Origin: an uncultured Oscillospiraceae bacterium
GTDB taxonomy: Bacteria; Bacillota; Clostridia; Oscillospirales; Oscillospiraceae
NCBI GenBank assembly: GCA_947589745.1
Contig: CANQCS010000016.1
Location: forward strand, 1 to 44,667
Reading direction: 5' to 3'
Length of the DNA stretch: 44,667 nucleotides
The notes below the pieces were generated by a model. The model searched no databases and had not been told where the DNA came from. It saw nothing but the letters and a program-made list of their open reading frames with translations. Below, in pieces: positions 3,627 to 42,239 of the stretch; the stretch's first letter is position 1; every line of letters starts with the position of its first letter. Both the position numbers and the translations under genes were made by a program.

Positions 3627-4064
3627 ATGATCAGATTGGAAGAGGTTGGCCCAGAAAATTGGAGATATGATCTCAAGGTATCGGAGGAACAAGAGCGCTA
3701 TGTCTCCGACAGAATGTGCCTGCTGGCCAGGGCCTATGCCTATCGGGAGAGCAGAAGCAGGGCGCTTCTCATTTACCATGGGGAGACCCCTGTGGGGATG
3801 GCCCTGTATTACGATCTGGATGATTGGGGTGCGTATGACTTCAGCCAGTTCTTCATCGACCGGCGCTATCAGGGCCGGGGCTTCGGCACCGAGGCAGCCC
3901 GGCAGATCCTGGAGATGATGGAGCGCGACGGCAGGTATGACAAAGTCGTCCTGTGCTATATCGACGGGAACGAGGCCGCGAAGAGGATGTACGAAAACCT
4001 GGGGTTCCATTTGACGGGAGAGCGCTATGAGGATGAGATCACCATGGAAAAGACATTCCGGTAG
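3627..4064 (+). CDS. GNAT-family N-acetyltransferase, copy A
   Basis: A 145-residue Gcn5-related acetyltransferase. The acetyl-CoA loop is visible as RRYQGRGFGTEAARQIL, and the C-terminal GNEAAKRMYENLGF block is typical of the fold. The N-terminal LKVSEEQERYV resembles the diamine/spermidine acetyltransferase (BltD-like) branch, so a polyamine or small amine substrate is plausible but unproven. It starts 15 bp after thyX. A close paralogue is encoded on the opposite strand at 37590-38027, with roughly two thirds identical residues by eye. Likely end of the ileS-thyX transcript. Confidence 0.88.
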   Translation: MIRLEEVGPENWRYDLKVSEEQERYVSDRMCLLARAYAYRESRSRALLIYHGETPVGMALYYDLDDWGAYDFSQFFIDRRYQGRGFGTEAARQILEMMERDGRYDKVVLCYIDGNEAAKRMYENLGFHLTGERYEDEITMEKTFR

Positions 4065-14670: not shown

Positions 14671-14735
14671 CCGGGTGGTAGGGGGCTCCGCCCCCACCGG
14701 GTCTGGGAGGGGCCTTTCGGCCCCTGCCTTCCCCT

Positions 14736-14765
14736 GGTGACTTTTCCCTCGCAGGAAAAGTCACC
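14736..14765. repeat. Arm palindrome, ACTTTTCC type (copy 1 left)
   Basis: GGTGACTTTTCC, six-base loop, GGAAAAGTCACC: a 12-bp perfect stem. Mirror of 15212-15241. Confidence 0.88.
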
Positions 14766-14882
14766 AAAAGTGCGCTTAAGGGGGCTTTCGCCCCCTTAAG
14801 AATCCCTCGGGGATGACGGTTAAGGACAGATGGGTGGTGGAACTATAGGCCAGGGAAAGCATTCATCAGGGGTGCTGGTTTG

Positions 14883-15015
14883 TTTTTCCGTAGTCCAACT
14901 GCCGGTTGCTCCGTTCCACTACGCAATTGATGGCGCGGTTCTTGTCGAGTCCGTAGACGAAAATCTGTCCTGTGCGTAGTGGAACGGAGCAGGACGCAGT
15001 CGGAATACGGAAAAA
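14883..15015. repeat. Core 43-bp imperfect inverted repeat, copy 1
   Basis: Arms 14883-14925 and 14973-15015; 37 of 43 positions pair, around a 47-base loop. The innermost 19 bp (TGCTCCGTTCCACTACGCA at 14907-14925 and its complement at 14973-14991) pair perfectly and are identical in copy 2. Confidence 0.9.
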
Positions 15016-15173
15016 ACGACCAACGCACCCAATGTGTCCGTGCACCAGCGCTTCACTCTCCTTGAGGACATACTTACTGTAGCCGCAACGCCTCATACAC
15101 GGGAGCAAGGACAGTTTAGAACAAACCAACCACAGGGGGAGCGCAAACACAAACAAAAAATAAGGAAAGATTC

Positions 15174-15203
15174 TCAAGAAAACCATTCCTGGTTTTCTTG
15201 AGT
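15174..15203. repeat. Perfect 13-bp hairpin at right edge of core, copy 1
   Basis: Arms CTCAAGAAAACCA and TGGTTTTCTTGAG around TTCC. Copy 2 (40670-40699) has TTTAAGAAAACCA and TGGTTTTCTTAAA: two base pairs changed on both sides, pairing kept. Confidence 0.88.
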
Positions 15204-15211
15204 GCACTTTT

Positions 15212-15241
15212 GGTTACTTTTCCTGCAAGGGAAAAGTAACC
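15212..15241. repeat. Arm palindrome, ACTTTTCC type (copy 1 right)
   Basis: GGTTACTTTTCC, six-base loop, GGAAAAGTAACC: a 12-bp perfect stem. It differs from the left arm by a G-C to T-A pair, with pairing kept. Confidence 0.88.
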
Positions 15242-15320
15242 CAGGGGTGCGCCCCACTGGGGGGCGAATCAGACCCGGTGGGGGCGGAGCCCCCACCCAC
15301 CATTGTAACGAAACCGTAAT

Positions 15321-15348
15321 ACAAATCCCCCATGATTTGTGTTATACT
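15321..15348 (+). promoter_or_regulatory. Promoter region of ABC-F gene with small palindrome
   Basis: A good -10 TATACT (15343-15348) with no clear -35 at 17 bp (TACAAA). A 7-bp inverted repeat ACAAATC (15321-15327) / GATTTGT (15334-15340) fills the spacer and could be an operator. Transcription from here gives a leader of about 240 bases. Confidence 0.6.
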
Positions 15349-15377
15349 AAACAAAAATCATGGAAAGGACTGAAAGA

Positions 15378-15392
15378 ATGATCAACGGCTGA
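15378..15392 (+). other. Four-codon leader ORF (MING-stop) before ABC-F gene
   Basis: ATG ATC AAC GGC TGA, preceded by GGAAAGGACTGAAAGA with a usable ribosome binding site. It is close to the 5' end of the predicted leader. It could serve as the ribosome-stalling sensor of an attenuator; inference. Confidence 0.4.
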
Positions 15393-15487
15393 ATCCGGCT
15401 TTTGTGCGAAAATCACCTGTCTGTCCACGCCTGGCGGCGTGGGCCTGGTGTTGTGCCGCCGAAAGTCAGAGGATGCCGGGTCATTTT

Positions 15488-15520
15488 GGCCGGAGCGTCC
15501 CGCTCCGGCGCGGCCTTTTT
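15488..15520 (+). terminator. First leader terminator of ABC-F gene
   Basis: Hairpin GGCCGGAGCG / CGCTCCGGC around TCC, with flanking GGCC pairing, followed by TTTTT (15516-15520). It lies between promoter and gene, so it would cut transcription before the ABC-F frame. Confidence 0.7.
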
Positions 15521-15529
15521 GCGTTCTCT

Positions 15530-15561
15530 GCCGCTTTCGGCTTGCCCGGAGGCGGCTTTTT
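15530..15561 (+). terminator. Second leader terminator of ABC-F gene
   Basis: Arms GCCGCTTTCGG (15530-15540) and CCGGAGGCGGC (15546-15556) form an 11-bp stem with two U-G pairs, followed by TTTTT, 32 bp before the ABC-F start codon. Two tandem terminators in one leader suggest attenuation. Confidence 0.72.
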
Positions 15562-15593
15562 GCTGCCCTCCGGCGAAGTGAAAGGAGAACGAT

Positions 15594-17141
15594 ATGCTGC
15601 AAGTCAAACACCTGACCATCACCCACACCAAGGACCTGCGGGTCCTGATCCAGGATTTTTCCTTTGTCCTCCACCCCGGCGACAAGGCCGTGGTCATCGG
15701 GGAGGAGGGCAACGGCAAATCCACCCTGCTGAAATGGCTCTACGACCCCGGCCTCATCGACGGCTACTGCGAGTGGTCCGGCGAGGCGGCCGGTGACCCC
15801 GGCCCCATGGGCTACCTGGCCCAGGACCTGACGGAGGCGGAGAAGGCCAAGAGCGTCTATGACTTCTGCGCCGGGTCCCCGGTCTTCTTCGACCTGACGC
15901 CAAAGGAGTTGGACCGGATCGCACGGCAGCTCCGCTTTCCGGCGGAGGAGTTCTACGCCGGCCGCCCGGTGGGCACTCTCTCCGGCGGAGAGCAGATCAA
16001 GCTCCAGCTGGCCCGGCTGCTCTTTGCCCGCCCCTCCGTGCTGCTGCTGGACGAGCCCTCCAGCGACGTGGACCTGGAGACGCTGCGCTGGATGGAGGGG
16101 TTCCTCAACAGCTTTGCCGGGATCTGCCTCTACATCTCCCACGACGAGACGCTTATCGAGAACACCGCCAACATGGTCCTCCACGTGGAGCACCCCCGGG
16201 AGGGCAAGCCGCCCCGCTGCACCGCCCACCGTCTCAGTTACCGGGACTACGTCCAACGCCGGGACGCGGGCATCTCCTTCCAGACCCAGCAGGCCCGAAA
16301 GGAGAAGGAGGAGTACGACAAGAAGATGGAGCGCTACCGCCGCATCCAGCAGAGCGTGGAGTACGCCCAGCGGACGATCACCCGCCAGAACCCCAGCGGA
16401 GGCCGCCTGCTGAAAAAGAAGATGCACGCGGTGATGTCCATGGGTCGGCGCTTTGAGCGGGAGGCGGAGGACATGACGAAGCTCCCCGAGGTGGAGATGG
16501 CCATGTTCCTCAGTTTCCCGGAGCACGTCCGCCTGCCCGCGGGGAAGACCGTGCTGGACCTGACGCTGCCGGAGCTGCGGGCCGGGGAGAGGCTTCTGTC
16601 CCAAAACATCCGCCTGCGGGTATACGGCGGCGAGAAGGTGGGCATCATCGGCCCCAACGGGACAGGCAAGACCACACTCCTGCGCCTCATCGCGGCGGAG
16701 CTGCTCCAGCGGCGGGACCTCCGCGCCGCCTATATGTCCCAGGACTACGCCGAGACCCTGCCCCTGGACCGGACGCCCATCCAGTACCTGGCCCCCGGCG
16801 GCGACACCGCCTCGGAGACCAGGGCCAGGACCTACCTGGGCAGCCTCCGCTACGCCCGGCAGGAGATGGTCCACCCCATCGCTGAACTCTCCGGCGGACA
16901 GAAAGCCAAGCTGCTGCTGACCCGGATGGCCCTGGACGGGGTGAACGTGCTGCTGCTGGACGAGCCCACCCGGAACTTCTCCCCCATCTCCGGCCCCAGG
17001 GTCCGGCAGGCGCTGGCGGACTACCAGGGCACCATCATCAGCGTCTCCCACGACAGGAAGTATCTGGCGGAGGTGTGCACCAAGCTGTACCGCCTGACGG
17101 CGGACGGCCTGCTGCCCATCGATACAGCCAGCCTATACTGA
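15594..17141 (+). CDS. ABC-F family ATPase (ribosome-associated)
   Basis: A soluble 515-residue protein with two ATPase domains and no membrane segment. Domain 1: Walker A GEEGNGKS (36-43), LSGGEQ (129-134), DEPSSDVDLETLRW. A charged linker (about 225-300, QQARKEKEEYDKKMERYRRI) is the ribosome-contacting P-site-tRNA motif region. Domain 2: Walker A GPNGTGKTT, LSGGQKAKLLL, DEPTRNFSPISGP and SVSHDRKYL. Family members act on the ribosomal E site, either as translation factors or in protection against lincosamide, streptogramin or pleuromutilin drugs. The attenuator-like leader favours drug-inducible protection; the subclass is not assigned. AAAGGAGAACGAT precedes the ATG. The stop codon is the first triplet of the palindrome at 17139. 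Confidence 0.85.
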   Translation: MLQVKHLTITHTKDLRVLIQDFSFVLHPGDKAVVIGEEGNGKSTLLKWLYDPGLIDGYCEWSGEAAGDPGPMGYLAQDLTEAEKAKSVYDFCAGSPVFFDLTPKELDRIARQLRFPAEEFYAGRPVGTLSGGEQIKLQLARLLFARPSVLLLDEPSSDVDLETLRWMEGFLNSFAGICLYISHDETLIENTANMVLHVEHPREGKPPRCTAHRLSYRDYVQRRDAGISFQTQQARKEKEEYDKKMERYRRIQQSVEYAQRTITRQNPSGGRLLKKKMHAVMSMGRRFEREAEDMTKLPEVEMAMFLSFPEHVRLPAGKTVLDLTLPELRAGERLLSQNIRLRVYGGEKVGIIGPNGTGKTTLLRLIAAELLQRRDLRAAYMSQDYAETLPLDRTPIQYLAPGGDTASETRARTYLGSLRYARQEMVHPIAELSGGQKAKLLLTRMALDGVNVLLLDEPTRNFSPISGPRVRQALADYQGTIISVSHDRKYLAEVCTKLYRLTADGLLPIDTASLY

Positions 17142-17168
17142 TACTTTTTCTTGAAAGAAAAAGTATCA
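17139..17168. repeat. Solo palindrome, ACTTTTTC type, including ABC-F stop
   Basis: TGATACTTTTTC, loop TTGAAA, GAAAAAGTATCA: a 12-bp perfect stem whose first three bases are the ABC-F stop codon. Its first 25 bases are identical to the last 25 bases of the window. Confidence 0.88.
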
Positions 17169-17259
17169 AAAAGAACTTTAACATCGCTCTCAAAGCGTTG
17201 CGATACCTGCATTTCCCACACGGTAACGTGACATACTTCTAATTGAAGAATAGTATGAT

Positions 17260-17310
17260 TTTTCCGGCCGCGGCTCCCGCTTGTGCGGGGAACTGCGGCC
17301 GGAAAATTTT
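17260..17310 (+). terminator. Strong hairpin terminator before marR
   Basis: Outer stem TTTTCCGGCCGC (17260-17271) / GCGGCCGGAAAA (17295-17306), inner stem CCCGC / GCGGG with TTGT loop, then TTTT. It probably ends the ABC-F transcript. Confidence 0.8.
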
Positions 17311-31589: not shown

Positions 31590-32294
31590 ATGAGCGGGTT
31601 TGTCCGGTTCGAGCATGTCAAGAAGACCTACCGCATGGGCGAGGTGGAGATCCAGGCCCTGCGGGACGCCACGTTCTCCGTGGAAAAGGGGGAGCTGTGC
31701 GTCATCGTCGGCCCCAGCGGCGCGGGAAAGACCACCCTGCTGAACATCCTGGGCGGGATGGACACCCTCACCGAGGGGCGCGTCTATCTGGGGGAGGACG
31801 AGATCTCCTCCTACGACGCCAAGCGGCTCACCGCCTACCGGCGGTACGACGTGGGGTTCGTGTTCCAGTTCTACAACCTGGTGCCCAACCTGACGGCCCT
31901 GGAAAACGTGGAGCTGGCGGCGGAGGTGTGCAAGGACCCCATGGACCCCAAGGAGGTGCTGCGCTCCGTGGGGCTGGATTCGCGGATGATCAACTTCCCG
32001 GCCCAGCTCTCCGGCGGCGAGCAGCAGCGGGTGGCCATCGCCCGGGCCCTGGCCAAGAACCCCAGGCTGCTGCTCTGCGACGAGCCCACCGGCGCGCTGG
32101 ACTACACCACCGGCAAGGCGATTTTGAAGATCCTCCAGGAGATGAGCCGTGAGCGGGGCATGACCGTAATCATCATCACCCACAACAGCGCGCTCACCGC
32201 CATGGCGGACCGGGTGATCCGGGTGAAGAACGGGGCCGTGGTGTCTGAGACCGTCAACGAGGCCCCTGTGCCGGTGGAGGATATCGAATGGTAA
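31590..32294 (+). CDS. ABC transporter ATPase, MacB/LolD/SalX type
   Basis: A 234-residue ATPase with Walker [11 protein letters not shown]-loop [12 protein letters not shown], signature [14 protein letters not shown], Walker [13 protein letters not shown] and H-loop [15 protein letters not shown] and the FQFYNL Q-loop mark the FtsX-permease-linked branch. The last 7 bp overlap the permease gene, so the pair forms one transporter. Such systems export peptides or toxic compounds, or act in mechanotransmission. AGGTGACGAG precedes the ATG; a two-codon ATG AGG TGA lies immediately upstream and overlaps the ribosome binding site. Confidence 0.93.
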
Positions 32295-35200
32295 AGACAT
32301 TGCTGCGCTCGACCCTGCGGGAGATCCGGCAGAGCCTGGGGCGCTATCTGGCCATTATGGCCATCGTGGGCCTGGGGGTGGGCTTCTTCGCGGGGCTCCG
32401 CATGTGCCAGCCCGCCATGATGGCCACGGGCGTGGAGTACCTGGACACCTACCGGCTGTACGACTTCCGGCTGCTGTCCACCCTGGGCTTTACCGAGGAC
32501 GACGTGGCGGAGGTGTCCGCCATGGACGGCGTGGCCATCGCCCGGGGGGCGGTGTACACCGACTTCCTCACCGTCCGGGACGGGGAGGAGCTGGTGCTCC
32601 GGGCCCACTCCCTGACGGAGGGGCTGAATGAGCCGGAGCTGGTTTCCGGCCGGATGCCCGAGGCGGCGGACGAGTGCCTGGCGGACGCCCGGAGCTTCTC
32701 CGAGGCGGACTTGGGCACCGTGCTGCCCGTGGCGGAGGACAACGACGAGGACACCAAGGAGCTGATGTACTACGACGGCTACACCATCGTGGGCACGGCC
32801 TACTCCCCCTACTACCTGAACTACGAGCGGGGCACCGGCTCCATCGGCAGCGGCAGCATCAACGCCTTTGTGTACATCCCGGAGGAGGGCTTCGACTTCG
32901 ACGCCTACTACGAGATCTTCGTGGCCCTGAAGGACCGCGGCGAAGCCTACTCCGACGCCTACCAGCAGCAGATCGACGCGCTGACCGAGGCGGTGGAGGA
33001 CATGACCGGCACCCTGGCCATCCGGCGCCACGACAACATCTACAACGACGCCATGGACGAGATCCGCGACGGCGAGCGGGAGCTCAGCGACGGCTGGGAC
33101 GAGTACCGCACCGGCCGGGCCGACGCGGAGCGGGAGCTGAACGACGCCTACCAGGACCTGGTGGACGGCGAGAAGGAATACGAGAACGGCGTGGCTGACT
33201 ACGAGCAGGGCAAGCTGGACTACGCCGACGGCCTCCGGGAGTACCAGGACGGCCTCCGGGAGCTGGAGGACGCGGAGGAACAGCTGCGGGACGCGGAGCA
33301 GCAGCTGAACGACGGCGAGACGGAGTTGGCCGGCGCCCAGTCGGACCTTCAGGACGCCCGGCAGGAGCTGGACGACGGCTGGAAGGAGTATGAACAGGCC
33401 AAGGCGGACACGGAGCGGGAGCTGGAGGACGCCTACCTGAAGCTGCAGGACGGCGAGGCGGAGTACGACGACGGCCTGCGGGAATACGAGGAGGGCCTCC
33501 GTGAGTACCAGGACGGCCTCCGGGCGTATGAGGAGGGCGAGCGTCAGGTCCGCGAGAACGAGCAGAAGCTGGCCGAGGCGGAGCAGCAGGTGGAGGATGG
33601 CCGGCGGGAGCTGGCCAATGGCGAGAACGAGCTTCTCTACTCCCAGTACCAGCTCCAGAACGGCAAGGCGGAGCTGGACGCCAACAAGGCAAAGCTGGAC
33701 GAGGCGGCGGCGCAGATCCAGCAGCTCCAGGCCGCCTACGACCAGGCCAATTCGGTCTGCCAGCAGGTGTCCCAGACGGCCCAGCAGTTCGGGATGTCCG
33801 CGGAGCAGCTGATGTCCGACCCGGACCTGCTGCTCCAGGCCGCAGGCGGGGACGCGGATGCCGCCGCGTCGCTCCAGGCGGGCTGGGCGCAGGCCGTGGC
33901 CGCCGTGGCGCAGACGGGACCGCTTCTGGAGTCCAGCCGTGCCGCCTATGAGTCCGGTCTCGCGGCTTATGACGCCGGACTGGCGCAATATCAGGACGGT
34001 GTGCGGCAGTACGAGGAGGGCGCGGCCCAACTGGAAGCCGCCCGGCAGGAGCTGGCGGAGGGGGAGCGTGCCCTGGAGGAGGGCCGCGCCCAGTTGAACG
34101 AGGCCCAGCAGCAGCTGGCCGAATCCCAGCGGCAGCTGGAGGACGCCCGCCTGGAGCTGGAGAACGGCCGGCAGGAGCTGGAGGACGCCCGGAAAGAGCT
34201 GGACGACGGCTGGAAGGAGTACGAGGACGGCAAGGCCCAGGCGGAGCGTGAGCTGAACGACGCCTATCAGGAGCTGACTGACGGCGAGTCCGAGTACTCC
34301 GACGGCGTGAAGAAATATGAGGACGGCAGGGCCGAGCTGGACCAGGCCCGCCGGGACTATGACGACGGCAGGGCCCAGGCGGACAGCGCCCGCCGGGAGC
34401 TGAACGACGGCAAGGCCGAGCTGGACGACGCCCAGCAGCAGCTGACCGACGCGGAGCAGCAGATCCCCGAGTCCCGGCAGGAGCTGGACGACGGCTGGCA
34501 GGACTACTACGACGGAAAAGCCGAGGCGGAGCAGAAGTTTGCCGACACCGAGGATGAGCTGGCCGACGCCCAGCAGGAGATCGCCGACGCCTACGACGAG
34601 CTGTCGGAGCTGGAGGAGCCCGTCACCTACGTGCTGACCCGGGACGAGAACATCGGCTATGCCAGCTTTGACAATGACACCTCCATCGTGGCCGCCATCT
34701 CCGTGGTGTTCCCGGTGTTCTTCTTCCTGGTGGCGGCGCTGGTGTGCATGACCACCATGACCCGCATGGTGGACGAGCAGCGGACCCAGATCGGCGTATT
34801 GAAGGCCTTGGGCTACAGCAACGGGCAGATCATGGGCAAGTACCTGTTCTACTCCGGCAGCGCCGCCCTGGTGGGCTGCGTGGCGGGCTACGCCATCGGC
34901 TCCACCGCCCTGCCATGGGTCATCTGGGAGATCTACGGCATGATCTACGGCTTCGCGCCGCTGCGGATGGTGTTCCGCCCGTCGCTGGCCCTGGTGTCCT
35001 TCGCGGCCGCTATGCTGTGCTCCATGGGGGCCACCTACCTCTCCTGCCGGGTGGAGCTGAACCGGCAGGCGGCGGAGCTCATCCGGCCCAAGACGCCCAA
35101 GGCGGGCCGCCGGGTGCTGCTGGAGCATATCGATCCTCTGTGGCGGCGCCTGAGCTTCCTGTACAAGGTCTCCGTCCGCAACGTGCTGCGCTACCACAGC

Positions 35201-36277
35201 CGCCTCATCATGATGGTGCTGGGCATCGGCGGGTGCACCGCGCTGCTGGCCACGGGCTTCGGCATCCGGGACTCCATCGCCCACGTCGCGGACGACCAGT
35301 TCGACGAGATCACCCTCTACGACTACTCCGTCACCTTCCAGGACGCCCAGACGCCGGAGAGCGCGGCGGCCTATCTGGAGGAGTACGGCTGGAGCCCGGA
35401 GACGGGCCTGCTGGTCCACAGCGGCAGCACGGACGTGGTGGCCCAGGACGGCACCAAGTCCGTCTATCTGGTGATCTCCTCCACCGATTCCCTGGACGGC
35501 TTCCTCTCCCTCCACAGCGGGGAGGAGCCCATCGCCTATCCGGGGAAGGACGAGGTGGTGCTGAATGTGGGCCTGGCCAAGCGTCTGGGCATCTCCCAGG
35601 GCGACACGGTCCTGCTCCGGGACGAGGAGCTGGGGAGCATGACGGTGACTGTGTCCGCCATCTGTGACAACTACGTATTCAACTACGTGTACGTCTCGGC
35701 GGAGACCTACGCGGAGCAGCTGGGACAGCCCCCGGAGTACAACACTCTCTACGTCCTGGCCCACGAGGGGGCGGACCCCTACGCCGAGGGCGCCCTTCTC
35801 CTGGAGGACGGGGACGTGGGCAGCGTCACCGTCAACGCGGAGACCCGGAGCCGGGTGGACAACATGCTCTCCCGGCTGGACTACATCGTGGTGGTGGTGG
35901 TCCTGTGCGCGGCGGCCCTGGCTTTCATCGTGCTCTACAACCTGACCAACATCAACATCACCGAGCGCATCCGGGAGATCGCCACCATCAAGGTCCTGGG
36001 CTTCTACCAGAACGAGGTGGCTGCCTATGTGTTCCGTGAGATCGCCATTCTCGCCGTGCTGGGGAGCCTGGTGGGACTGCTGATGGGCAAGGCCCTCCAC
36101 GCCTATGTCATGGCCCAGATCAAGATCGACGCCATGTTCTTCGCCTGCCGCATCACGCCGGTCAGCTACCTCCTCTCCCTGGGGCTGACGATGGTGTTTA
36201 CCGCCGTGATCGCCGTGGGGATGCGGCCGCGCCTGCGCCGGATCGACATGGCGGAGTCGCTGAAGTCCATCGAGTGA
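32288..36277 (+). CDS. FtsX-type ABC permease with ~520-residue coiled coil
   Basis: A 1329-residue permease, far longer than the usual FtsX protein. Helix 1 is at about residues 17-38, then an extracytoplasmic domain, then about 250-777 of predicted coiled coil made of heptads such as YEEGLRE-YQDGLRA-YEEGERQ. Three helices follow (about 800-920, with the conserved IGVLKALGYSNGQI), another N-terminal-type helix near 970, a second periplasmic domain and the C-terminal FtsX domain (REIATIKVLGFYQNEV). The sequence ELxDGWxxY recurs at residues 265, 360, 637 and 732. Partner of the preceding ATPase. The coil could reach through the wall or bind a partner; function unknown. Confidence 0.9.
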   Translation: MVKTLLRSTLREIRQSLGRYLAIMAIVGLGVGFFAGLRMCQPAMMATGVEYLDTYRLYDFRLLSTLGFTEDDVAEVSAMDGVAIARGAVYTDFLTVRDGEELVLRAHSLTEGLNEPELVSGRMPEAADECLADARSFSEADLGTVLPVAEDNDEDTKELMYYDGYTIVGTAYSPYYLNYERGTGSIGSGSINAFVYIPEEGFDFDAYYEIFVALKDRGEAYSDAYQQQIDALTEAVEDMTGTLAIRRHDNIYNDAMDEIRDGERELSDGWDEYRTGRADAERELNDAYQDLVDGEKEYENGVADYEQGKLDYADGLREYQDGLRELEDAEEQLRDAEQQLNDGETELAGAQSDLQDARQELDDGWKEYEQAKADTERELEDAYLKLQDGEAEYDDGLREYEEGLREYQDGLRAYEEGERQVRENEQKLAEAEQQVEDGRRELANGENELLYSQYQLQNGKAELDANKAKLDEAAAQIQQLQAAYDQANSVCQQVSQTAQQFGMSAEQLMSDPDLLLQAAGGDADAAASLQAGWAQAVAAVAQTGPLLESSRAAYESGLAAYDAGLAQYQDGVRQYEEGAAQLEAARQELAEGERALEEGRAQLNEAQQQLAESQRQLEDARLELENGRQELEDARKELDDGWKEYEDGKAQAERELNDAYQELTDGESEYSDGVKKYEDGRAELDQARRDYDDGRAQADSARRELNDGKAELDDAQQQLTDAEQQIPESRQELDDGWQDYYDGKAEAEQKFADTEDELADAQQEIADAYDELSELEEPVTYVLTRDENIGYASFDNDTSIVAAISVVFPVFFFLVAALVCMTTMTRMVDEQRTQIGVLKALGYSNGQIMGKYLFYSGSAALVGCVAGYAIGSTALPWVIWEIYGMIYGFAPLRMVFRPSLALVSFAAAMLCSMGATYLSCRVELNRQAAELIRPKTPKAGRRVLLEHIDPLWRRLSFLYKVSVRNVLRYHSRLIMMVLGIGGCTALLATGFGIRDSIAHVADDQFDEITLYDYSVTFQDAQTPESAAAYLEEYGWSPETGLLVHSGSTDVVAQDGTKSVYLVISSTDSLDGFLSLHSGEEPIAYPGKDEVVLNVGLAKRLGISQGDTVLLRDEELGSMTVTVSAICDNYVFNYVYVSAETYAEQLGQPPEYNTLYVLAHEGADPYAEGALLLEDGDVGSVTVNAETRSRVDNMLSRLDYIVVVVVLCAAALAFIVLYNLTNINITERIREIATIKVLGFYQNEVAAYVFREIAILAVLGSLVGLLMGKALHAYVMAQIKIDAMFFACRITPVSYLLSLGLTMVFTAVIAVGMRPRLRRIDMAESLKSIE

Positions 36278-37589: not shown

Positions 37590-38027
37590 TTATCTCAGCA
37601 GCTTCTCCATTATGATCTCATCCCCGTCGCGCTCTCCCGTCAAATAGAAGCCCAGCTTCTCATACATGTGCCTCGCGGCCTCATTCCCATCGATATAGCA
37701 CAGGACGGCCTTATCAAATTTGCCGTCGCGCTCCATCCGCGCAAGGATCTGCCGCGCAGCCTCGCTCCCAAGGCCCTTCCCCTGATATCGCTCATCGATA
37801 AACAGCTGACTGAAATCAAATGCGTCCAGTTCATCGAAGTCGTAATACAGGGCCATCCCAACGGGAATACTTCCGTCATAAATGACAAAAGCATTGCTTC
37901 TGTGCTCCCGATACGCATACGCCCTTGCCAGCAAGCACATGCTGTCAGCCACATAATGCATTTGCTTTTCCGATACCTTGAGCCCCAGTCTCCAATTTTC
38001 TGGGTCCACTGCTTCTAATCTAACCAT
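37590..38027 (-). CDS. GNAT-family N-acetyltransferase, copy B
   Basis: 145 residues, same length as copy A at 3627-4064 and about two thirds identical: shared LLARAYAYRE, PVGMALYYD, DFSQ-FID, YQGKGLGSEAARQIL and VLCYIDGNEAA blocks. The acetyl-CoA loop is ERYQGKGLGSEAARQIL. AAGGAGAACC precedes the ATG. It lies 51 bp after larC on the same strand and may be cotranscribed. Its codons are more AT-rich than the flanking lar genes. BltD-like small-amine substrate suspected, not shown. Confidence 0.88.
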   Translation of the reverse strand: MVRLEAVDPENWRLGLKVSEKQMHYVADSMCLLARAYAYREHRSNAFVIYDGSIPVGMALYYDFDELDAFDFSQLFIDERYQGKGLGSEAARQILARMERDGKFDKAVLCYIDGNEAARHMYEKLGFYLTGERDGDEIIMEKLLR

Positions 38028-38078: not shown

Positions 38079-39347
38079 CTATTTCGCCCGGTCGAACGCC
38101 TCCCGGGCGGCGGCCAGGGGGAGGCCGTGGGCCTTAGCGGCGGCGGCCAGGTCCTCGTACTCCGCCTTGCGCTTGACGAGGCCGTAGCCGGTGCCCGTCT
38201 TGCGGGCGATGGGACCCAGGAAGGTGTCCGCCGTGTCCCGGCCGGGCGTCAGGGCATAGCGGGGGCAGTCCGTGCGGCGCACGCCGAAGGTGGTGGTGTG
38301 GCGCAGCATCTCCAGCGCCAGCCGGTCCGCGTCCGCCGGACGGCACAGGCAGGTCAGCAACACACCGGGCCGGTTCTTCTTCATCTGGATGGGCAGGTAG
38401 GACACGTCCAGCGCCCCGGCCTCCAGCAGCCGCTCCATGGCGTACCCCAGGGCCTCGCCGGTCATGTCGTCGATATTGGCCTTCAGCTCCGTCACCGTGT
38501 CGTTGGGCCCCCCGGCGGTGTCCGCCGTGTCCACCAGGAAAGCCCGGACGCAGTTGGCCCGGGGGAAGTCCTTGGTGCCGCAGCCGTGGCCGCAGCCCAG
38601 CATGACCCCAGCGGGCATGGGCCCGAAGGAGCTGGCAAAGGTCTTCAGCAGCGCGGCCCCGGTGGGGGTGCAGAGCTCGGCGGCGATGTCGCCGGCGGCC
38701 ACCGGCACACCGGTGAGCAGCCGCGCCGTGGCGGGCGTAGGCACCGGCAGCACACCGTGGGCGGTATGGACCGTGCCGCTGCCCACCGTGACGGGGGACG
38801 CGGCCACCGCGTCCGGGGCCAGCAGATACATCAGGTAGCACACGCCGGTGACGTCCGCCACCGCGTCCATGGCGCCCACCTCGTGGAAGTGGACCTGTCC
38901 CGCCTCCACGCCGTGGGCGGCGGCCTCCGCCCGGGCGATGAGGGCGTAGACCTTTTTCGCGTCCGCACGGACCCGCTCCGGCAGGGAGAAGCCGTCGATG
39001 AGCGCCTCGATCTCCGCCAGGCTGTGGTGCTCGTGGTGATGGTGGTGTTCGTGTTCATGGGCATGGGGATGCTCATATTCATGACCGTGTTCGTGGTCAT
39101 GGTGCTCATGCTCATGGTGCTCATGGACATGCCCGCCGTAGGCCTCCTCCTGTCCGTCGATGACCACCCGCATATGGGTCCCGGCGATGCCCTGCCGGGT
39201 GACCGCCTCGGCCTCCACGGTGAGGCCGGGGAGCAGGTGGGCCATATCGTGGAGGAAGCGCTCTTTCTCCGGGCACAGCTCATAGAGGGCGCCCATGAGC
39301 ATATCGCCCGCCGCGCCCATGGCGCACTCCAGGTACAGTGTCTTCAT
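38079..39347 (-). CDS. larC: LarC, nickel insertion into NPN cofactor
   Basis: Inserts nickel into pyridinium-3,5-bisthiocarboxylic acid mononucleotide to make the NPN cofactor of lactate racemase-type enzymes. The 422-residue product begins MKTLYLECAMGAAGDMLMGAL, a LarC hallmark, and has a His-rich stretch (about residues 74-108, many HEH and HHH) for nickel. HFHEVGAMDAVADVTG is also conserved. In Lactobacillus plantarum larC is split and joined by programmed frameshift; here it is one continuous frame. The start overlaps the larB stop (ATGA). Confidence 0.95.
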   Translation of the reverse strand: MKTLYLECAMGAAGDMLMGALYELCPEKERFLHDMAHLLPGLTVEAEAVTRQGIAGTHMRVVIDGQEEAYGGHVHEHHEHEHHDHEHGHEYEHPHAHEHEHHHHHEHHSLAEIEALIDGFSLPERVRADAKKVYALIARAEAAAHGVEAGQVHFHEVGAMDAVADVTGVCYLMYLLAPDAVAASPVTVGSGTVHTAHGVLPVPTPATARLLTGVPVAAGDIAAELCTPTGAALLKTFASSFGPMPAGVMLGCGHGCGTKDFPRANCVRAFLVDTADTAGGPNDTVTELKANIDDMTGEALGYAMERLLEAGALDVSYLPIQMKKNRPGVLLTCLCRPADADRLALEMLRHTTTFGVRRTDCPRYALTPGRDTADTFLGPIARKTGTGYGLVKRKAEYEDLAAAAKAHGLPLAAAREAFDRAK

Positions 39348-40105
39348 ATCTCGTCGATCCCCTTCATCTGATTGATGCGGTGGGCCAGGAAACCGGCCCC
39401 GAAGCCGTTGTCAATATTTACTACGCTGACGCCGCTGGCGCAGGAGTTGAGCATGGCCAGCAGGGCGGCCAGCCCGCCCAGGTTGGCGCCGTATCCCACG
39501 CTGGTGGGCACGGCGATGACCGGGCAGCTGACCAGCCCGCCCACCACGCTGGGCAAAGCCCCCTCCATCCCGGCCACAGCCACGATGCAGCGTGCCTTCT
39601 CCAGGGTCTCCAGCTGGGACAGCAGCCGGTGGAGCCCGGCCACCCCGGCGTCGTAGACCCGGTGGACCCGGCTGCCCAGGGCCTCAGCGGTGAGGGCGGC
39701 CTCCTCGCAGACCGCCAGGTCGCTGGTCCCGGCGGAGACCACCACGATGCTGCCCGTCAGGGGATGGTCCTGGGGGTTGGCCACCGCCAGATGGGCGGCG
39801 GCATCATACGTATAAGGGAAAAGCCCCTCCAGAACGGCGGCCTTTTCCTCCGAGAGGCGGGTGATGATGATGTTGGCGGTGCCCCGCTCCATCATGGCGC
39901 GGACAATGCCAGCGATCTGCTCCGCCGTCTTGCCCTGGCCGAAAATCACCTCCGCCGCCCCCTGGCGGGCGGCGCGGTGGTGGTCCACCTTGGCGTAGCC
40001 CAGATCCTCAAAAGGGGATGGCCCGATGAGGCGGGCGGCCTCCTCCGGGGAGAGGGAATGGGCCTTTACCCTGTCCAAAAGGGTAAGAAGGGTGGACTGG
40101 TCCAT
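39344..40105 (-). CDS. larB: LarB, nicotinate mononucleotide carboxylase
   Basis: Carboxylates and hydrolyses nicotinic acid adenine dinucleotide to pyridinium-3,5-dicarboxylate mononucleotide, the first step of NPN cofactor synthesis. 253 residues. The C-terminal PurE-like domain is visible (VVSAGTSDLAVCEEAAL, VYDAGVAGLHR, VAVAGMEGALPSVVGGL, AVPTSVGYGAN). Start at 40105 has AAGGAG 11 bases upstream; a GTG four codons earlier lies inside that site. It forms larB-larC; larE and larA are not in the window. The upstream region is the left arm of repeat copy 2. Confidence 0.94.
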   Translation of the reverse strand: MDQSTLLTLLDRVKAHSLSPEEAARLIGPSPFEDLGYAKVDHHRAARQGAAEVIFGQGKTAEQIAGIVRAMMERGTANIIITRLSEEKAAVLEGLFPYTYDAAAHLAVANPQDHPLTGSIVVVSAGTSDLAVCEEAALTAEALGSRVHRVYDAGVAGLHRLLSQLETLEKARCIVAVAGMEGALPSVVGGLVSCPVIAVPTSVGYGANLGGLAALLAMLNSCASGVSVVNIDNGFGAGFLAHRINQMKGIDEI

Positions 40106-40220
40106 AGCGTAGATCACTCCTTCCTGGGGGTGTGGGGGCGCAGCCCCCTAATGCGAATCAGTAGGGGCCTCCGGCCCCTACCACCTCTTATATTATCTTT
40201 CAGTGCCTATGGGCACCCTG

Positions 40221-40250
40221 GGGTACTTTTCCCACGCGGGAAAAGTACCC
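40221..40250. repeat. Arm palindrome, ACTTTTCC type (copy 2 left)
   Basis: GGGTACTTTTCCC, loop ACGC, GGGAAAAGTACCC: a 13-bp perfect stem; its mirror is at 40709. Confidence 0.88.
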
Positions 40251-40357
40251 AAAAGGGCGCCAGCCCGTAGGGCTGGACCTCTGACTAATTTTTGTTAAGG
40301 ACAGATGGGTGGTGGGACTAGGGGCCAGGGAAAGCATTCATCGGGGGTGCCCCCTTG

Positions 40358-40489
40358 TTTTTCCTTAGTCTTACTGCTGGTTGCTCCGTTCCACTACGCA
40401 ATTGATGCCGCGGTTCTATTTGGGCCGTATACGGAAATCTGTCCTGTGCGTAGTGGAACGGAGCAGAACGCAGTCGGAATACATAAAAA
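40358..40489. repeat. Core 43-bp imperfect inverted repeat, copy 2
   Basis: Arms 40358-40400 and 40447-40489 around a 46-base loop. The inner 19 bp (40382-40400 and 40447-40465) are perfect and identical to copy 1; the outer part is more diverged. Confidence 0.9.
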
Positions 40490-40708
40490 CGACCAGCGCA
40501 CCCAATGTCCGGTTTCGCCGCCCCAAGCGGCGAAACTTGCGCCGCAGAAGGATCTCCTTGGGGACATACTGAAACAGCCGCTTCGCCCCTATACACGGGA
40601 CCCGGTCCGGTTTAGACCTGACCAACCAAAGGGTGAGCGCAAAACTAAACAAATAATTAAGGAAAGATTTTTAAGAAAACCATTCCTGGTTTTCTTAAAC
40701 GTGCTTTT

Positions 40709-40738
40709 GGGTACTTTTCTCACGAGGGAAAAGTACCC
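40709..40738. repeat. Arm palindrome, ACTTTTCC type (copy 2 right)
   Basis: GGGTACTTTTC pairs with GAAAAGTACCC, extended by one T-G and one C-G pair. The inverted match to the left arm extends outward on both sides (CTTTTGGGTAC and CCCCAGGGGTGC). Confidence 0.86.
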
Positions 40739-40790
40739 CAGGGGTGCACCCATTGGGGGTGCAGATCAACCCCGTTGGGGGCGGAGCCCC

Positions 40791-42239
40791 CTACCTCTTT
40801 TTCCAGAGAGAAGGAAACAGCAGCAGCAGCAGCGGCATGATCTCCAGCCGCCCCAACAGCATGTTGAGGCTCAAAAAAATCTTGCTGAGGCCCGACAGGG
40901 CCGCAAAGTTGCTGGTGGGCCCCAGAGAGGAGAACGCCGGGCCCACGTTGCTGATGCACGTCAGCGACGCGGTGAACGCGGCGGTGAAGTCAATGTCGTC
41001 CCACGAGACCACCAGCGTCACCACCAGCAGCATCAGGATATAGGCGAAGAAGAACAGGGAGATGCCCGACAGGATGGGCTCGTCCACACGGTCGCCGTCG
41101 CTCTTGATGGTGGTCACTACACGGGGGTGCAGAATGCGGTTCACCTCCCGGCGGAGGTTCTTCACCAGCAGCACCACCCGGATCTGCTTCACGCCGCCCG
41201 CCGTGGACCCGGCGCAGGCCCCGGCGAACATGATGAAGATCAGCACCGTCTGGGAGAAGGTGGGCCATAGGGTGTAGTCATAGGTCATGTACCCCGTGGT
41301 GGTCATCAGCGTCACCACCTGGAAAGCGCTGTCCGTGACGGTCTGGAGGCTGACCTCAGCCCCGGCCTTGACGACCAGGTTGATGACGATGAGCACCGTG
41401 GCGCCTACGGCCATGGCGGTGTAGCTCCGCAGCTCCTCGCTCTGGAACACCGCCTTGAAGTTCCGCCGCACGGCGAAGTACAGCAGAGCGAAGTTGATGC
41501 CGGAGAGGAACATAAAGACAATGATGATCCAGTCCACCGCCAGACTGTTGTAGGCGGCGATACTGGCGTTCCGGTTGGAGAAGCCGCCGGTGGAGATGGT
41601 GGAAAAGGCGTGGATGAAGCAGTCGTACCAGGGGAGGCCGGCCACGCGGAGGCTGAGGATCTCCCCCACGGTGAGGCCGATATAGATACTGTACAGGATC
41701 TTGGCCGTGTCGCCCACCCGGGGGGTCAGCTTGCTCTTGATGGGGCCGGGGGACTCCGCCCGCATCAGGTAGACGCTGCCCTCCCCCAGCTTGGGCACCA
41801 GGGCCAGGGCCAGCACCAGGACGCCCACGCCCCCCATCCACTGGGTCTGGGCCCGCCAGAAGAGGACCCCCAGGGGCTGGCCCTCGATGAAGGTCAGCAC
41901 CGTGGAGCCAGTGGTGGTGAAGCCGGACACCGTCTCAAAGACGGCATCGATGTAGTTGGGCAGCACCCCGCTAAACACATAGGGCAGGGCCCCGCACATG
42001 GACAGCACGATCCAGGTCAGGGACACCGTGGCGAAGCCGTCCCGGGCCTGCATCTTGATGCCCTTGTAGGGCAGGAAGCACAGCAGCTGCCCGATGGCGA
42101 AGGTGAGGACCATGGCCCAGAGGAACGCGGGCCCGTCCCCCCCGCCGGTGGCAAAGCCGATCACCAGGGAGGGCAGCATCAGCACCGCCTCCACCCGCAG
42201 AATCATGCCGAGGATGTGAAATACCAGCTTATAATTCAT
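40791..42239 (-). CDS. Potassium uptake membrane subunit, TrkH/KtrB family
   Basis: A 482-residue channel-like protein with four M1-P-M2 units and about ten hydrophobic helices. P-loop glycines occur in SGFTTTGSTVL, STISTGGFSN, TLMTTTGYMTYDYTLW and SLTCISNVGPAFSSLG, forming the potassium filter. Works with the cytoplasmic TrkA-type subunit encoded 15 bp upstream. GGGGAGGGCGCT precedes the ATG. The stop codon shares a base with the terminal hairpin of repeat copy 2. Confidence 0.94.
   Translation of the reverse strand: MNYKLVFHILGMILRVEAVLMLPSLVIGFATGGGDGPAFLWAMVLTFAIGQLLCFLPYKGIKMQARDGFATVSLTWIVLSMCGALPYVFSGVLPNYIDAVFETVSGFTTTGSTVLTFIEGQPLGVLFWRAQTQWMGGVGVLVLALALVPKLGEGSVYLMRAESPGPIKSKLTPRVGDTAKILYSIYIGLTVGEILSLRVAGLPWYDCFIHAFSTISTGGFSNRNASIAAYNSLAVDWIIIVFMFLSGINFALLYFAVRRNFKAVFQSEELRSYTAMAVGATVLIVINLVVKAGAEVSLQTVTDSAFQVVTLMTTTGYMTYDYTLWPTFSQTVLIFIMFAGACAGSTAGGVKQIRVVLLVKNLRREVNRILHPRVVTTIKSDGDRVDEPILSGISLFFFAYILMLLVVTLVVSWDDIDFTAAFTASLTCISNVGPAFSSLGPTSNFAALSGLSKIFLSLNMLLGRLEIMPLLLLLFPSLWKKR

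Follow-up and report, generated by a model that had tools for sequence, protein, structure and literature searches.

Copy 1, a segment of the 44,667-nucleotide window that we analysed from an uncultured Oscillospiraceae bacterium, is probably a gene-less member of a family of non-autonomous intergenic repeats with hairpin arms, which are able to carry genes at their apex and are homogenised between copies. Its mobility we infer from the sequence comparison of genomes. The source genome (G000) has 4,053,535 bases in 252 contigs and is 98.8% complete. A preliminary description of the window had recognised copy 1 and one related copy; the present analysis adds the 19-mer core, copies with cargo, and sites shared with a sister species.

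The features of both copies are listed in Table 1. The exact 24-bp inverted repeats described earlier at the two ends of copy 1 were present. The longest exact terminal inverted repeat was 25 nt, and in 300 random control stretches of 629 nt from the window the longest inverted repeat was 18 nt, with none reaching 24. Nested inverted pairs and local hairpins were likewise found, the pairs being 32 nt at 94%, 50 nt at 86% and a central 62 nt at 77%. When copy 1 was folded as single-stranded DNA, the z value was -18.4 and none of 20 shuffles was as stable. A 113-aa ORF lies inside copy 1 (14866-15207, minus strand). However, across the 40 aligned copies the longest run free of stops on this strand spans 56-99 aa, and therefore this ORF was not regarded as a gene, in agreement with the earlier statement that the segment has no coding capacity. 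An Rfam match had been named as a finding that would speak against the original description, and none was obtained at the gathering score in the whole window. At a relaxed threshold, five weak matches with unrelated, implausible names appeared in five loci, none of them in L001, which holds the window copy. The related copy at the other position in the window (copy 2) was confirmed, with 79% identity to copy 1 over 502 aligned columns plus arm matches. According to Pfam, copy 2 is neighboured by an AIR-carboxylase-domain gene (39344-40117) and a TrkH gene (40791-42239).

Table 1. Positions of the two element copies and their parts in the window.
Feature	Position	Strand	Basis or remark
Element copy 1, arm A to arm B	14673..15301	+	recognisable repeat ~14677-15296 (alignment of 40 copies)
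Outer GC-rich terminal repeat, arm A side	14674..14705	+	24 bp exact at 14681-14704
Outer GC-rich terminal repeat, arm B side	15270..15301	-	24 bp exact at 15271-15294
Arm A 'ACTTTT' hairpin	14735..14766	+	local stem self-complementary in 62/62 A arms
Arm A second hairpin, CTTAAGGGGGC...GCCCCCTTAAG	14775..14800	+	sequence reading; within minimum-energy fold
Arm A conserved inner segment	14819..14906	+	column identities of 40-copy alignment
Left core 19-mer, reverse complement of TGCGTAGTGGAACGGAGCA	14907..14925	-	
47-bp apex spacer	14926..14972	+	elsewhere in the family, genes or an extra 60-bp unit here
Right core 19-mer, TGCGTAGTGGAACGGAGCA	14973..14991	+	
Arm B conserved inner segment	14992..15170	+	column identities; copy 2 counterpart matches several congeners
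Arm B hairpin 1	15173..15202	+	covariation
Arm B 'ACTTTT' hairpin 2	15212..15241	+	covariation
Element copy 2, arm A to arm B	40131..40793	+	homology to copy 1
Left core 19-mer of copy 2	40382..40400	-	
Right core 19-mer of copy 2	40447..40465	+	

Several other features of the window were observed. Among the matches listed, the neighbours of copy 1 lie on different contigs in the congener that has both. An ABC-F-like gene with two ABC_tran domains (15594-17141) follows copy 1, and the interval between them (15302-15593) contains palindromes and a very short ORF (ATG ATC AAC GGC TGA). Together they resemble a translation-sensing leader, and a similar short ORF precedes the same gene in the congener G266 (L122). 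Behind the ABC-F-like gene, a second dispersed repeat with its own ACTTTTTC hairpin was found at 17138-17270; pieces of it match many congeners among the matches listed. Two GNAT-like paralogues (3627-4064 and 37590-38027) agree at 105 of the 146 positions compared, counting the stop, and an ORF at 32288-36277 encodes a permease-like protein of 1329 aa with, by eye, a very long repetitive heptad-like segment.

The family extends beyond the two copies in the window. A genome search with the element matched at least 40 long places, 40 of the 260 first-look candidates having been scored, and TGCGTAGTGGAACGGAGCA was found in G000 at 425 sites with up to two mismatches, the reversed control giving 0. 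Direct reading of 1.18 Mb of G000 located 182 core sites in 85 elements, which comprise 53 with one inverted pair, 21 with an extra 60-bp unit and 11 incomplete ones. In the single-pair elements, the cores are 64-66 bp apart in 46 and have cargo between them in 7. Scaled from the 85 elements in 1.18 Mb, the genome-wide copy number is estimated at ~198. An enlarged sample of 1.906 Mb, read with up to three mismatches, contained 203 core sites in 95 groups. With up to three mismatches, no core was found on contigs 9, 10, 13, 18, 19, 21, 23, 24, 25 and 27 of G000 or in the first 20 kb of contigs 31, 32, 36 and 37; about half of these stretches have a lower GC content (0.475-0.60) and are perhaps islands or foreign contigs.

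Each unit is ~600-720 bp long and modular, consisting of arm A, the inverted core 19-mers and arm B. The elements are asymmetric, 67 of the 85 having one A and one B arm. The extra 60-bp units are direct units ending in the core. For an alignment we took the 40 of the 85 elements that had two cores, no extra unit, A and B arms and full flanks. In this alignment, identity is high over the recognisable repeat (Table 1, copy 1 coordinates) and lower outside it. Mean column identity just beyond the B end is ~0.2-0.4; beyond the A end it is irregular, and some copies are longer there. The outer ends are fuzzy and modular, and terminal modules differ among copies. The most invariant part of the element is its centre, not its ends. 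The constraint on the core was examined in arms found by words from outside the core, so that there was no selection for the core itself. The exact 19-mer was present in 77/85 B arms and 78/92 A arms, while the 19 nt adjoining the core matched the better of two consensus words exactly in 0/83 B arms and 2/91 A arms. The core 19-mer is thus nearly invariant while the neighbouring sequence varies.

These ends bear on the possibility that copy 1 is an ordinary MITE, an internally deleted DNA transposon moved in trans by its transposase via terminal inverted repeats, as the preliminary description had suggested when it compared the segment to a MITE or other passively mobilised element. A MITE would fit the size, the high copy number, the intergenic placement, presence/absence between congeners and the terminal inverted repeats of 24-32 nt. 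The accessible part of a MITE review (PMC10969869) gives 50-500 bp as the usual size, mentions a 611-bp MITE that mobilised a gene, and states that MITEs can mobilise genes in trans. However, no target-site duplication was detected in the 59 elements with recognisable hairpins, the longest direct repeat in the flanks being 4.31 nt vs 4.45 nt in shuffled sequences; element ends were set by rule in this test, and a short duplication could escape it. As a common target motif, TCTATTCGA was discarded, with only 3 occurrences in 1.18 Mb. A full-length transposon with the same ends had been proposed as something to look for, and no parent with matching ends was found. The Pfam search of the tested cargo proteins identified no transposase. 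Neither plasmids nor phages gave a blastn match, and viral contigs gave none to the exact core; records near the source genome may be absent from these sets. Compared with what that part of the review describes, the element resembles MITEs in being non-autonomous, with terminal inverted repeats and many copies, and differs in its constrained centre, its modular ends, the lack of a detected target-site duplication and its length above the usual size. Terminal inverted repeats and dispersed high copy number with presence/absence were found, and a target-site duplication was not. We therefore keep the broader part of the earlier suggestion, dispersed intergenic copies with presence/absence and no enzyme of their own identified, and consider a strict MITE unlikely.

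Hairpins in inverted pairs could also be spread by a RAYT (Y1) transposase, as REP/REPIN sequences are. Many intergenic hairpins in inverted pairs are seen here too, and G268, the other species with the core, has one partial Y1_Tnp match. However, G000, in which the family is largest, gave no match to PF01797 (Y1_Tnp, RAYT). Matches were obtained in 5 of the 25 genus genomes, and the seven loci around them contain neither the arm hairpin nor the core. As far as the source genome is complete, a REPIN/RAYT system was rejected for it, and we find this explanation scarcely credible. The element shares with REPINs/BIMEs, as described in the available text of PMC3116915, inverted pairs forming hairpins, extragenic location and abundance; it differs in being ~620 bp long and in a genome with no RAYT match.

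The covariation of the hairpins was analysed in an alignment of 39 of the 40 aligned copies, including both window copies; one copy near a stretch edge was left out, and two rows that align only in their first part (L074:13567 and L057:2635) were retained. Both arm B hairpins covary, with 97.3% of cells paired vs 90.6% in shuffles. Compensatory change was observed as well, since 10 of 24 pairs were altered on both sides, with 52 such cells vs 10.5 in shuffles. Among 62 elements with recognisable hairpins, the local stems are complementary in every A arm and in 59/62 B arms. Arm A and arm B of one element have the same stem type in 24/62 elements vs 21.6 expected, suggesting that selection acts on the local hairpins and not on a long fold-back. 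Fold-back of the whole element as a conserved structure is not supported on this ground, the A-B agreement being close to the chance level. The earlier claim that the whole segment can fold on itself stands for the stability of the fold of copy 1; only the local hairpins are conserved as pairs. The same results weaken the other suggestion made at that time, a structured RNA with unusually long arms. The strong fold and the covarying hairpins would agree with a large RNA of defined structure that some mobile process has dispersed, but A-B pairing is not conserved, no Rfam match was found, and the centre is interrupted by genes in some copies. We consider it very unlikely.

Cargo was found between paired cores ~250-1685 bp apart in 7/95 groups, plus 3/30 groups of a further set whose stretches were picked partly for holding copies or DUF6809 matches. 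The cargo includes a class I methyltransferase (PF08241) with a DUF6199 protein, two GNAT acetyltransferases and a third one, and shorter or unassigned ORFs. In three G000 elements, on contigs 216, 7 and 97, a Cro/C1-type HTH gene is divergent from a DUF6809-family gene. HTH_3 was confirmed on contigs 216 and 7, the contig 97 HTH being assigned by reading, and the contig 97 copy has a stop within the DUF6809 frame. In the contig 216 element, both cores have the same altered word, a paired change. On contig 28 (13225-20064), several genes lie in the 6.8 kb between a lone A-side core and a lone B-side core; this may be one large cargo or two half-elements. A frame on contig 28 that looked by eye like part of an IS630-type transposase had no Pfam match, and neither had one small cargo frame read as ribbon-helix-helix. 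At bases 1-230 of contig 97 (L273), arm B is cut by the apparent terminus of a different mobile element, in which the end of a recombinase-like coding sequence was seen by eye.

Such cargo recalls integrons. Integron gene cassettes are small genes beside a short conserved, foldable site, attC, and are recombined by IntI at a platform. An integrase could by analogy recombine at the 19-mers and exchange genes here: genes lie between inverted cores, the 60-bp direct units end in the core, and the kinds of cargo are reminiscent of integron cassettes. The likeness is thus one of small genes near a short conserved, foldable site. Unlike cassettes, the elements are dispersed and not arrayed at one platform, their cores are paired in inverted order, and the core, judged by eye, departs from the attC consensus. 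An integron-like system is therefore highly improbable in our view.

The DUF6809 gene is more widespread than the elements that carry it. It was detected in 24 of the 25 genus genomes at E <=0.01 and over the cut-off in 18, and a fourth match in G000 (contig 213, under the cut-off) is outside any element. Of 30 DUF6809 loci read, four have arms on both sides and eight have any arm. Among 33 control loci none has two-sided arms and six have one arm; four of these six are the TrkH-side elements of G029, G251, G255 and G257, which hold DUF6809-like frames. The core word of the congeners lies within 500 bp of DUF6809 for 2/9 matches in G029 and 2/13 in G252, with ~2% per match expected. Nine named DUF6809 loci, from 41 pattern-matching stretches, all have a divergent HTH-like ORF by reading. 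An arm stands 207-215 bp behind the HTH/DUF6809 pair in five of them, Oscillibacter/Oscillospiraceae MAG loci (L264-L268), and in 0/4 of the others. Four of the five armed loci turned out to be DNA from congener loci included above, and therefore they added names rather than cases. Since the pair is without arms in 4/9 named loci, and 26/30 DUF6809 loci are without two-sided arms, it may be ordinary cargo. The HTH and DUF6809 genes are a wider module sometimes carried by elements, not proof of a parent element. PADLOC had no family for two DUF6809-like proteins, and the regulators matched general HTH models. The predicted structure of a DUF6809-like protein is all-helical, with a mean pLDDT of 57.6 that is too poor for a fold search. 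A full-text literature search found no paper on DUF6809. In G212, a genome of another genus of the family, an ACTTTT arm hairpin is close to a DUF6809-like frame (locus L103, 2000-2659).

We also compared the distribution of the core and the arms among relatives. With up to one mismatch, the 19-mer was found among 250 genomes of the family only in the source genome and at one contig end of G231, which belongs to another genus. At this end (contig 24, L112), one 19-mer and part of arm B stand behind a gene that looks by eye like GNAT; this copy may reflect either transfer or contamination. A degenerate core matched 2 of the 25 genus genomes, G000 (423 sites) and G268 (56 sites). The G268 elements have the same layout as those of G000, with pieces 66-80% identical to copy 1, and their core differs on both sides of the pair. 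One core position is fixed by species, with 191 T vs 3 G in 1.9 Mb of G000 and 0 T vs 42 G in the G268 loci read. Yet another core word, unrelated to these, matches 5/25 genus genomes, chiefly G029 (55 sites) and G252 (46 sites), where the elements are similarly armed. The strict ACTTTT arm hairpin occurs in 9/250 family genomes, G000 among them.

Many element sites are shared by G000 and G268. The 32 element places of G268 yielded 57 flank sequences, of which 22 have a homologue in the 1.18-Mb sample of G000. Sixteen of these 22 project to within 142 bp of a G000 core, one to a contig edge and five elsewhere. Counted by locus, 10/15 gaps are shared, with two G268 loci (L138 and L139) excluded for having no core motif; where both flanks were mapped, 6/7 agree, the remaining one being rearranged. 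A rough calculation puts the chance expectation for such agreement at ~3%. At the ten shared loci, read by eye among the matches listed, the arm order often differs. We read the shared gaps as old sites whose content was reshuffled and homogenised. In the more distant G029, six element loci have long flank matches in G000; an element is found within ~550 bp in one and is absent in five. At one of these five, the gap is 595 bp with the element in G029 vs 24 bp in G000. Behind the TrkH gene that flanks copy 2, the arm hairpin is present in G029, G251, G255 and G257 and in 0/11 other congeners read.

The agreement of positions between two species would also suit a host feature that is old and static, and in that respect it speaks against mobility. 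Bidirectional terminators, or nucleoid or recombination-control sites selected at fixed places, would explain the same gaps and the invariant core. They would also suit the placement of the elements as judged with a simple ORF caller, where 2/95 cores are within a called ORF and 26/70 element-holding gaps are convergent vs 321/1335 of all gaps. Against this, the core is present in only 2/25 genus genomes, sister species have a different core, the arm order differs at shared sites, cargo genes are carried, and relatives have element-free gaps. Hence we consider a host feature distinctly unlikely.

For the favoured reading, a mobile repeat with a gene-carrying apex, the following mechanism can be proposed. 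A sequence-specific protein acting in trans would recognise the inverted 19-mers and handle the apex, and the hairpins would aid processing of the element in single-stranded or cruciform form. Copies with cargo may represent the fuller state, the numerous gene-less ones being its empty form after amplification. Arm modules could be reshuffled, and the core kept uniform within each species, through recombination or gene conversion among copies. The uniformity of the core may also come from recent spread rather than from a binding protein, and some of the cargo may be native genes that became caught between two half-elements. A related but rather unlikely possibility is an undescribed exchange system, in which a trans-acting enzyme would read a lineage-specific core pair and swap the apex content, core and enzyme co-evolving so that each species has one core. 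The apex contents in this reading would be nothing, the 60-bp unit, HTH with DUF6809, GNAT, or the methyltransferase.

Two other known repeats resemble the favoured hairpin-armed repeat in part. BOX elements are built from boxA, boxB and boxC modules. The available text on BOX elements of Streptococcus pneumoniae (PMC3049150) gives 67-637 bp and a variable number of inner units, with ORFs in large ones. The element is, like BOX, a modular intergenic repeat, here with an extra 60-bp unit, the layouts being compared by description only. Unlike BOX as described in that text, it has two inverted invariant 19-mers with independent genes between them. Mobile insertion cassettes have repeat ends around a non-transposase gene, which is the likeness to our element; its ends, however, are not recognised as a known insertion sequence, and most of its copies are gene-less. 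One such cassette, MIC231, is named in the available part of PMC6542083. In the literature on Faecalibacterium, Oscillospiraceae and Oscillibacter repeats, no title or abstract start among the matches listed describes this family.

At ~198 copies of roughly 0.64 kb, an estimated ~3% of the genome would be one undescribed hairpin-armed repeat. Armed elements give a context to DUF6809. Some copies stand at synteny breaks, and the family may also shape chromosome rearrangement. The combination of shared sites, a species-specific core and interchangeable genes makes three questions testable within one genus: how gene-poor repeats are amplified without a recognised enzyme, how copies scattered over the genome remain uniform, and how small accessory genes end up between operons.
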